From contig CM044962.1 of NCBI GenBank assembly GCA_024516035.1, forward strand, positions 1,922,437 to 1,986,436: a stretch of DNA of 64,000 bases, read 5' to 3'. The notes under the pieces were generated by a model. The model had not been told where the DNA came from. It saw only the letters and a program-made list of their open reading frames with translations, and did not search any database. A program made the position numbers and the translations under genes. Numbering within the stretch: the first letter of the stretch is position 1; each line of letters opens with the position of its first letter. The DNA is from Bactericera cockerelli (lineage: Eukaryota > Arthropoda > Insecta > Hemiptera > Triozidae). Below, piece by piece: positions 19,301 through 64,000 of the stretch.

Positions 19301-22300
19301 GGCTGTGAAACACTCATCTTTTTAAAAAAAATCGTACCAGATACCCTCATTAAACTCACCCAGTCTGGGAAGGGCTGGAAATGCCTCACGTGTTCGGAGG
19401 GGACAGAATTTTCCGCTTAAAAATTCTGCCATAACCGTTGATTATGGGCAGTAGCCAAGACTGTAACGCCAATGACTAAAAAGCTAATTTATTATTATTA
19501 TGAAATTCTTTAATAGAAGAACATAATTATTATGTATATACAAACAAATAATGGTAAAACTTAAAATACAAAATTGACAATATAAATATAAAGAGGAAAG
19601 AAAAAAAAATATATAATTATACATATATGTCCTAACTAAAGGGCGGGGTTATTGCCTATGGCAAACTCTTCCACCCAACCCTTCAGGAGTCTTCAGGTCT
19701 TATTTCATATATGAGTAAATAAGGTAGGCACAATAATCCTGTATATCATAAGTCGTCCCTTAGTCTTTTTTTGTGTTACTTCTGCTTGTACCTTGACTTG
19801 GTTTAACAACTTTTATATATATATATATACATATATATATTTAATCTCTGTTTACACGCAACAATAATGCTGCAAATACGTAAACAGGTTTAAGGGACAC
19901 TGCATACAGAACACCTAATAAAACATTATCTTATCTTATCTTATCTTATTTTATCTTATCTTACTGAGTATCGCAGTGAGCACCAGGAGGTACAAATTGA
20001 TCACGAGAAACACTTGATGAAGAACTCCCTCTGTGTCGTCCAAATTGAAAGGTGTCCACATTTCGAAGGGCAGCCGATGCTCAGGCCGGGCCTTCTTGTA
20101 GTAGTACTTGACCACCTCCACCTCGTGGGATTGCGGGCCGAAGAACAGAGGCCGGAAGTAGGTCATGAACAGAGCTGAAATGACTGAAATTGTCGAAAGA
20201 GACAAAATTATTGTTCTATACCCCCTAAAAGTACAAAAGATATTGTACTTCAAGGGGATTGTAATGAAAAAACTGTAGAATGAAAATAAATCAACTTATT
20301 ATTATTATTATTATCATCATAGGGTGGCGTCATCGTGAACGATGGTAGCCAGACAGTGGAGGAATGACTCAGCACTTCTACCACTGTCTTTACAAGGAGG
20401 CTAATAATTGACAAGGACCCTCAGAACCAAGCCAATGCTGGTCTACTCCCTGTTTATAGTCCCCCAGCCAGACTGTCTCTATCTATACGAACTATAAGAA
20501 AAGAAAAAAAAACAGAAAAGGGAGAAAAAATGTATTTTACTGATTGGTATGCTGTGTACTTTGGCAATCAGCAAAAATACTGACAGCATCTTTGTTTTAT
20601 TGTTTAAAATGAATAAAACATTTGTTTTTCTCTCTAAAACTGAAATCTGCGCGTGTCTGACTGGTTGACTATATTATGTTCTTTTAGGGGTTGTCTGTTC
20701 ACTCTTAGGGGTTGTGACAGCCCAAACGATAACAGATATGAACATTTCATGAGAGTTGACCTTCCTTACAAATAGGGTGGTTACCAATGACAGTGCTTGT
20801 GTTAAGCACCATCTTCTCCCTGGCCACACACTTCGCCCACACTTCTGGATCCGGATCAAAGGATCGCCTCATCTCCAGGACTTGCTCATAGTTCACGTAA
20901 ACAAAGAAGAACATTTCGAACAGGAACAGGCTGCCCAAGAAGCTTTCGATCACTCGCAGGGTGATTTCCGTGCCTGAAACCAAGGGAATAGTCGAATTTT
21001 ATCATACAACACAATACCTCGTGAGGAAAAATGAGTATCTGCTTTATTCAAAAATTTATTATTATTCAACAATTTAGATCAATCTTTATTTACAATTTTT
21101 TATATACAGGTGCAGTCAAAAGGTATAATTTATTAAAGATAAACAAAGTTTGATCAAGGGTGGTGATAATGCCTTTGGCATTCTCTTCTTTAATGTTAGC
21201 AGCGACCAGTGGCGGAATTACAGGCAAAAATAAGGTATTGCGATATTAAAGATATGGAAAAGTCCCTGGAATCTTTGGATTCACAGAGTGCCGCATTTAC
21301 CACTGAGCTACCGGGACGGAGTGGACGGACGAATCCAGTTCTTCTTCTTCTTTTATATCCTGGTTCGACTTGGATAGGAATCGAAAACTCATCCACCCTG
21401 TTGCATAGGCAGGGCTGTATTTAAGGGGGGGCCCAGGGGGCCCGCCCCCCCCCTCGAGCTTGGCCCCCCCTCGAAATTCTCACTTGAACGCAGGCTCTCG
21501 TCCCGGGCCCCCCATGCTTTGGATTTTTTCTAGGTACATTAAATATCTATACGTACATGTTGATTCCTAAACACAATAAACAGTAAAATCCAACTGCATT
21601 ACAACATAATTATTATTATACTCTTTGGGCCACCCCCTGACAAAAATCCTGGATACGGCCCTGTACATAGGTGCTCAGTATACTTACCTTTTTATTACAT
21701 ATTACTATTATTTTATTTTGAGCTTTCTCATTTTTTGAACCTTTGATGGAGAGGTCCATGGTGAGCAGATTGTACAGGTTGAGGGACTCAGAGTACACAA
21801 ACCAGCACCACATGGTCCAGGGGATGAGGCAGAACACGCGACGCAACACGGAGGTGGGCGGGGTCTGAGAATCAAATACAATGTATTTCTTTGTGTACAA
21901 TGCCTAGCGCGCTAACTCACTCTTCCACGGTGACTACTTTTTTTAAAAGCAAAACAGCACAGAAACCCTTAGGAAACTGCAAGCTAGCCTGGCTTGTAAG
22001 GGTTGGCTAGTCAGTTCTCTGATTATGGTCCGCTAGCGAGACACTGATGGTCTTCTCCCTGTTTAACGTCGGGTTGGGTGGAAGGGTTTGTCATAGGCAA
22101 TAACCCCGCCCTTTAGTTAGAACATATGTATTTATCTATTTCTTTGCATTTTATTGTTTTTTACATTTTTCTATTCTTCTTATAATAATTATTTGTATTG
22201 TACATAGGTCTTTTTATCTAATAAAGCATTTTATAATAATCATAATAATTACAACCCCCAGCCAGTCTTTCGACGGTGCTTTCTCTTGGTACGTCCATCT

Positions 22301-63900: not shown

Positions 63901-64000
63901 TAACTACGCATAAGATGTACCTTGCCACAGAGGTAGACTAGATTGATTATAAATAAGATCTACCTTGCCACAGAGGTAGACTAGATTAACTACGCATAAG
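57902..64000 (-). CDS. coro: Coronin, C-terminal exons (partial; 5' part beyond window)
   Basis: Exons in minus order: 62424-62245, 60640-60535, 59518-59355 and 58129-57902 (stop 57904-57902), all with GT/AG borders and matching phases, 225 residues. Coronins are WD-repeat proteins that bind F-actin and regulate Arp2/3 at the cell cortex. Visible family marks: [10 protein letters not shown] (last WD blade), the [17 protein letters not shown] block, [27 protein letters not shown] and [14 protein letters not shown] final leucine-containing coiled coil ([20 protein letters not shown]) is followed by an acidic tail instead of ending soon after. The WD propeller exons lie to the right; copies of the preceding exon's end (YLCGK plus donor) appear in the array at 63440-64000. 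Tandem arrays touch two of its junctions. Confidence 0.93.
58205..58765. repeat. Tandem array of the family I terminal unit
   Basis: Units of GGCTGGGGGACTATAAACAG, GGAGACTATAAAGAGAGGGG and GGAGTAGACCAGCAGTCT repeat about six times in the last coronin intron. The same unit ends family I elements at 6920, 40790 and 61110. Confidence 0.85.
58880..59025 (-). mobile_element. tRNA-like SINE, family E
   Basis: Inverted copy: AACTCGCTCTACTAAATCTA and GCCTTATCGATCAAGCTACT on the plus strand. Confidence 0.75.
60001..60345 (-). mobile_element. SINE family A flanked by inverted host or repeat segments
   Basis: The family A copy is at 60040-60280 (minus). The flanking strings GGACGCCCAGATCCAATGTC and (inverse) ATTGGATCTAGGCGTCCATA, with ATGAAAGGAGCCTAGCTAGA, form an inverted repeat around it. 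Confidence 0.7.
60690..60840 (-). mobile_element. tRNA-like SINE, family E
   Basis: Inverted full copy with TTTCGTGATATCACAACTAC tail and CACCTTATCGATCAAGCTAC head. Confidence 0.8.
60975..61310 (+). mobile_element. SINE family D (60975-61110) followed by family I (61100-61310)
   Basis: Family D: GGTTCGAATCCCACCCAGTG. Family I: CTATAAACAGAAAGTAGACC units and CTACCATCGTTCACGATGAC. Confidence 0.7.
61801..61840 (-). repeat. Diverged copy of a coronin exon end with its donor
   Basis: ACCTGACAGAGGCCCGAGTT GTTGAG... matches 62243-62280 (end of exon 62424-62245 and the first intron bases) with few changes, about 442 bp downstream in the transcript. Surrounding DNA is unrelated AT-rich sequence. Confidence 0.85.
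62425..62875 (-). repeat. 21-bp array of the coronin exon acceptor (about 20 copies)
   Basis: On the coronin strand units read TTTACAGGGTGAAAACTTACA or TTTACAGGGTGAAAATTTACA. The real acceptor is TCTACAG|GGTGAC at 62424. Every unit thus has ACAG|GGTGA, the acceptor and the first exon bases. Confidence 0.95.
62880..63440. other. AT-rich intron DNA with a split SINE family E
   Basis: The SINE E tail (TGCGTTAATCACTTTCGTGATAT, 62975-63005) and head (63345-63450) are separated by about 340 bp of AT-rich sequence, probably an insertion. Confidence 0.6.
63440..64000 (-). repeat. 43-bp array of a coronin exon end with donor, about 13 copies, cut by window edge
   Basis: On the coronin strand each unit contains TACCTCTGTGGCAAGGTAGA, encoding Tyr-Leu-Cys-Gly-Lys before GTAGAC. 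This is the residue string expected just before Gly-Asp-Ser at 62424, with phase 0 on both sides. The real exon should lie right of 64000. Confidence 0.88.

Follow-up and report, generated by a model that had tools for sequence, protein, structure and literature searches.

Tandem arrays that copy exon-intron junctions in three genes of the psyllid Bactericera cockerelli

The DNA analyzed here is a stretch of 64,000 nucleotides of the Bactericera cockerelli assembly GCA_024516035.1 (contig CM044962.1, positions 1,922,437 to 1,986,436 of the forward strand), which we refer to as the window. It carries the genes for Snr1/SMARCB1, fructose-1,6-bisphosphatase (FBPase) and coronin, together with gene models for a zinc carboxypeptidase (PF00246) and a 7tm_6 odorant receptor, and the exon borders were set by hand from the reading frames and the splice consensus. 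The FBPase protein is 88% identical to that of Cacopsylla melanoneura and 86% identical to that of Diaphorina citri, and the top Snr1 matches with an organism name (among the best 120 of 893) begin with Hemiptera, such as Kerria and Bemisia. Therefore, the sequence is psyllid DNA by its own content. The subject of this study is a group of six minisatellites in the first three genes, the repeat units of which span an exon-intron junction and copy its splice site.

Tandem Repeats Finder (TRF) returned 78 rows, of which we used those with a period of 10 bp or longer and no fewer than 3 copies, merging overlaps; the unused rows had a shorter period, had fewer copies or were duplicates of one array. 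This selection gave 20 arrays, and 12 of them, including the small array at 29876-29943, overlap introns of the five gene models. A junction is copied by six of these 12: a donor by five and an acceptor by one (Table 1). A real exon-intron boundary occurs within the window for five of the six arrays and inside the TRF bounds for four; the boundary of the sixth, the coronin donor array, would lie beyond position 64000. The arrays without a junction are found in three receptor introns, the last coronin intron, FBPase intron 4 and Snr1 intron 3, the latter two introns holding one small array each. All of the unit and site counts given below include the real copy.

A previous interpretation of the window, made from its letters only (the sequence-only reading), listed at least eight such junctions in four genes. 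The six arrays of FBPase, Snr1 and coronin are borne out by our analysis, and the two receptor cases are not, as neither copies a junction. The proposed array at the receptor exon 5 donor (19926-19963) is a 5-bp TAAGA microsatellite beside GTAAGA, and the GT itself is not repeated. At the proposed exon 7 acceptor, the sequences across the donor and the acceptor of the intron at 18178-18667 each occur once, and this intron is filled nearly end to end by repeats (18185-18666). The receptor arrays at 17485-17581 and 16494-16692 were also considered as junction copies and rejected because they stop 25 and 11 bp short.

Table 1. Host genes, junction-copying arrays and local duplicates in the window. 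A slash marks the exon-intron border.
Feature	Position	Strand	Description
Snr1/SMARCB1 host gene	43169..51547	+	9 coding exons; PF04855, PF21459; 370 aa open protein
FBPase host gene	26106..36116	-	6 coding exons; PF00316, PF18913; 341 aa open protein
Coronin host gene	57902..64000	-	4 coding exons in window, 5′ part outside; C-terminal part 225 aa
FBPase coding exon 5 donor array	27069..29165	-	17 units; exon's last base 29127; from TRF and unit listings
FBPase coding exon 4 donor array	29959..30752	-	25 units; exon's last base 30748; from TRF and unit listings
Snr1 exon 5 donor array	47151..47571	+	96-bp unit (87 nt exon + 9 nt intron); 4 full in-frame copies
Snr1 exon 7 donor array	49394..50556	+	26-bp unit TGCCTTCAG/GTGAGTGGTTCAAGCTG; 44 full copies
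Coronin acceptor array	62425..62869	-	21-bp unit (and longer forms) copying TTTACAG/GGTGA; TRF bounds 62449-62869
Coronin donor array	63444..64000	-	43-bp unit ending CTAGTCTACCTCTGTGGCAAG/GTAG; 12 full units; true exon end inferred beyond 64000
Dispersed copy of coronin exon end	61801..61838	-	38 bp, 92%; 442 bp downstream of the real one at 62243-62280
Decayed two-copy tandem duplication across Snr1 exon 3 donor	45237..45535	+	45237-45380 and 45389-45535; 74% over 148 columns

The two FBPase donor arrays, which the sequence-only reading had assigned to exons 5 and 6 and which belong to coding exons 4 and 5 in our model, copy their junctions according to the unit listings. At exon 5, which ends in PKGK/GTGAGT, the unit of 102-143 bp consists of the 66-nt exon end and approximately 68 nt of the intron start including GTGAGTGG, with length variants, and GTGAGTGG is present in 17/17 units. 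The exon-derived part is 66 nt long in eight units (the real one among them), and one of these units has a stop codon; in the remaining nine, the exon part is of another length. Across the eight units, the variable columns number 0, 2 and 7 at codon positions 1, 2 and 3 (P = 0.008), or 0, 1 and 4 if one clustered block is removed (P = 0.045), and 6 of the 75 columns of the intron-derived part are variable. One alanine codon in the exon-derived parts of this array shows all four bases. The units at exon 4 are mostly 29 bp, with forms of 43-44 bp towards the intron-distal end; they copy CCT/GTAAGT from the exon end LDP/GTAAGT, and 23 of the 25 have kept the GT.

Both donor arrays that had been proposed for Snr1, at exons 5 and 7, were recovered. 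At exon 5, the donor sequence is identical in the four full copies, and just 2 of their 96 columns are variable; a fifth copy is broken off beside an element resembling a miniature inverted-repeat transposable element (MITE). This MITE-like element (47577-47955) starts where the fifth copy stops; it looks like a second one at 55378-55736, and the terminal inverted repeats of the two measure 57 bp at 91% and 29 bp at 97%. In the exon 7 array, GT is present in 29 of the 44 units and GTGAGT in 27, i.e., the latter has been lost in 17. GTGAGT occurs in all of the first 10 units and in 17 of the other 34 (P = 0.004), and the G of the GT is the column with the most alternative bases (three). Moreover, 11 consecutive units appear a second time at a distance of exactly 25 units. 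This recurrence is a block duplication and a mark of block-wise exchange.

The coronin arrays had likewise been proposed previously, and the evidence upholds both. TACAGG is read at 19 of 20 sites of the acceptor array. Between the TRF bounds of this array and the acceptor there is a gap of 24 bp; the two are connected by the similarity of the real acceptor to one of the array copies (33 bp, 91%). For the donor array, the coding end of the unit was joined to the next exon (NLVYLCGK followed by GDSVIRYFE), and the product aligns to solved coronins without a gap at the join. Only 1 of 21 columns is variable in the exon-derived half of this unit, compared with 11 of 22 in the intron-derived half (P = 0.0015). 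One coronin intron apparently carries an array at each end. The single duplicate of a coronin exon end at 61801, also claimed before, is real and extends only 2 bases, the GT, into the intron. In addition to the arrays, a self-comparison at lags up to 1,500 bp detected local two-copy pairs; one of them, the decayed duplication across the Snr1 exon 3 donor, is an addition to the earlier list.

Tandem repeats on exon-intron boundaries reportedly received the name mirages in a 2002 Nucleic Acids Research paper on amphioxus, and a paper by Turri et al. from 1995 is said, by its title, to concern a minisatellite providing multiple splice donor sites (IFI6). Thus, the statement of the sequence-only reading that no system of this type has been described does not hold. 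Amphioxus mirages are tandem repeats that span the 5′ and 3′ exon-intron boundaries of several genes, including globins (PMC3087553), and TnC and, in imperfect form, PGBD5 also carry them (PMC3902484). The units are 10-72 and 150-160 bp long, and many but not all of them retain AG/GT; regular splicing is reported to be undisturbed, and length and somatic instability are also reported (PMC3087553, PMC3902484). The psyllid arrays are similar: the units span real boundaries, both 5′ and 3′, in three genes, and many but not all of them keep AG/GT (17/17, 23/25, 19/20 and 29/44). They differ in belonging to an insect, in reaching 44 full copies, in the crowding of six arrays within approximately 37 kb and in the coronin intron with, apparently, an array at each end.

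Other known systems share single features with the psyllid arrays. In human IFI6 (6-16/G1P3), isoforms splice from donors supplied by two downstream repeat units (PMC4526556). One gene obtains several splice donors from a minisatellite in both cases; however, internal repeat units act as donors in IFI6 mRNAs, and such use was not observed for the psyllid arrays. Intron gain by tandem duplication under the Rogers model has been described for a potato RdRp gene in a paper that also refers to a 24-bp AGGT array of fission yeast (PMC4974935). There, tandem duplication with splice signals likewise changes gene structure, but the extra psyllid copies sit in existing introns, and the window shows no new one. 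Finally, human segmental duplications contain internal tandem repeats at exon-intron boundaries that differ among recent paralogues and may give rise to alternative introns (PMC2812944); these resemble the psyllid arrays as minisatellites at exon-intron boundaries. No insect account of splice-junction arrays was found among the papers listed for insects and psyllids or for splice-site repeats, judged by titles and the openings of abstracts. Therefore, arrays that copy junctions are a known and named phenomenon, and it is their presence and density in an insect that look new.

We consider the six arrays to be mirage-type minisatellites of a psyllid, with a probability of roughly 0.78: segments spanning a junction would have been tandemly duplicated and then expanded by unequal exchange, and the spare splice sites would be unmaintained by-products. 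A segment that happened to span an exon-intron boundary would be duplicated in tandem, probably via replication slippage or microhomology-mediated repair, and the array would grow by unequal exchange in blocks of several units. Such an array could persist because splicing would still rely on the site nearest the exon, all further copies leaving with the intron; the additional sites would then be by-products without a maintained function. The mechanism of the first duplication, the effective neutrality of the arrays and the cause of the junction excess are parts of this explanation that we infer. Growth of the arrays with a common polarity was considered and rejected; the rank correlation between unit identity and distance was not significant for the Snr1 exon 7 or FBPase exon 4 arrays, and it has the opposite sign in the FBPase exon 5 array (P = 0.045).

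Evidence on splicing comes from a 370-aa Snr1 translation (P0121), which matches our model over its entire length with 99% identity and contains each repeated segment once. Its source is a contig of 1,493 bp, which we read as a probable transcript because it contains the whole open frame. The single-copy segments would fit the use of only the exon-proximal donors of Snr1 exons 5 and 7. The dinucleotides at the junctions are variable in 3 of 12 columns, compared with 57 of the 331 other columns (P = 0.45; stratified permutation, 0.66 and 0.63). Because junction columns vary as often as the others, the spare sites are not specially kept, contrary to the suggestion of the sequence-only reading that arrays retaining spare splice sites are the ones best tolerated.

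Several observations weigh against this explanation. Plain neutral drift fails to account for the third-codon-position bias of the FBPase exon 5 copies; one reading is that these copies may have been derived, at various times, from an exon end that was functional. The near-invariant exon-derived half of the coronin donor array is a further difficulty, and the individual behind the P0121 contig may lack the arrays. Furthermore, neutral tolerance alone predicts no excess of junction-spanning arrays over pure intron arrays, and yet a per-event excess was found.

This excess was evaluated by placing a seed of each array's unit length at random such that it touched an intron, with the introns collapsed to one unit per array; all of these statistics are post hoc, for one window chosen after the pattern was noticed. 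Six of the 12 intron-touching arrays contain a junction, compared with 1.25 expected (P = 3.8e-4), and the excess persists if the coronin donor array is dropped (5/11; P = 0.0022), if only arrays of at least 400 bp are considered (6/8; P = 6.6e-5) and, more weakly, if only junctions inside the TRF bounds are scored (4/12; P = 0.025). With four local two-copy pairs added, 8 of 16 events contain a junction, compared with 1.84 expected (P = 7.6e-5); the count falls to 6/15 (P = 0.0032) if the 61801 copy is scored as a non-junction event and the coronin donor array is dropped, and to 5/16 (P = 0.024) in the strictest scoring. Collapsed to one unit each, the arrays cover 2.6% of the intron sequence, and yet 6 of 54 junctions are touched. 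Donors are hit more often than acceptors (7/27 vs. 1/27; P = 0.05). A control by position gave a different result: a good local copy was found for 5 of 53 junction windows, compared with 375 of 1571 intronic windows (48 of 1238 outside the arrays) and 2 of 290 exon-internal windows, such that junction windows are not commoner in duplications than intronic ones; the coronin acceptor and the 61801 copy, with scores of 37 and 39, fall just under the threshold of 40 used for this count. Therefore, the excess holds per event and not per base. The sequence-only reading expected random intronic arrays to include a junction only rarely, and by events the junction-copying arrays outnumber those of random placement (P from 7.6e-5 to 0.025, depending on the scoring). 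The event-wise excess over random seed placement favors some bias in where duplications start. It is possible, although we hold the idea only tentatively, that exon-intron boundaries, and donors above all, are preferred starting points of duplication, for example owing to breaks linked to transcription or to direct repeats shared by a splice site and its look-alikes in the intron. Such a mutational hot spot would be compatible with the mirage interpretation, and the event counts and the preponderance of donors speak for it. Against it are the post hoc choice of a single window, the weaker outcome of the stricter scorings and the control by position; in addition, old junction copies may remain detectable for longer because one partner is constrained.

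The other explanations concern the value of the copies or their reality. That spare splice sites are advantageous or protective, and that selection keeps the arrays for this reason, is very improbable in our view. The persistence of GT in all of the FBPase exon 5 units and nearly all of the exon 4 units, and of TACAGG in the coronin acceptor array, is in its favor, but junction columns pooled over the arrays are no more conserved than others, and the most diverse column of the 44-copy Snr1 array is the G of the GT. It is somewhat less improbable, although still unlikely, that some copies are used, either as alternative donors of Snr1 exon 5 (1-4 copies) or as FBPase units serving as 66-nt in-frame cassette exons. 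The four Snr1 copies share one donor, and the joined products of 370, 402, 434 and 466 aa would all be in frame and open; the codon-position bias of the FBPase units and the employment of repeat units as donors in IFI6 also point in this direction. However, the Snr1 matches with at least 89% identity (among the best 120 of 893) are four in number and all 369-371 aa long, and more than half of the FBPase units could not provide the 66-nt exon, one further unit being interrupted by its stop codon. An assembly artefact is the least probable explanation of all: the near identity of the four Snr1 exon 5 copies might suggest one, but variants specific to single copies occur in the other arrays, and the units of the FBPase arrays belong to several length classes.

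Returning to the mirage interpretation, its interesting part is why duplications in this window fall so often on junctions, particularly donors. A broader proposal, which we regard as rather doubtful, is that psyllid genomes as a whole tend to duplicate at boundaries, mainly donors; splice-site arrays, and occasionally novel introns or exon ends, would then arise in them separately from the cephalochordate case. Should dense mirages prove common in psyllids, they would be no peculiarity of cephalochordates, and these insects would provide a tractable group for testing where duplications start relative to transcription and splicing. They would also permit tests of how the spliceosome chooses among dozens of near-identical donors and of the rate at which new introns arise by such a route. 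In Cyamophila willieti, also a psyllid, the predicted Snr1 (P0144) contains LVDQIEW-GCDQVKYSRGQHVP-VDQIEW. This stretch can be read as a repeat of the exon 7 start translated out of frame, and this gene prediction would be a hint of an exon-edge duplicate in a further species. For gene annotators it is a caution, as a translated exon-edge duplicate seems to have been included in the predicted protein.

Some other repeats of the window deserve mention. A 36-bp array at 36382-36959 lies approximately 280 bp upstream of the FBPase start codon; it adjoins a possible leader-exon donor, CTTGCAAG/GTAAGT, near 36365, and TATAAATA occurs near 36980. Its unit resembles the 43-bp coronin unit to a degree matched by 0 of 20,000 random windows in one direction and by 6 in the other; this likeness may be called suggestive, the pair having been picked from 28 unit pairs on two strands. 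For the FBPase exon 4 and coronin acceptor units, 19 and 23 of 20,000 such windows matched the observed similarity, which is not suggestive given the same choice among 28 pairs. FBPase intron 3 contains a large imperfect palindrome (31442-33444) with 485-nt arms at 98% and inner matching arms of 131 and 47 nt. Upstream of Snr1, at 42817-42900, two directly adjacent arms of 42 nt form an inverted repeat at 88%.

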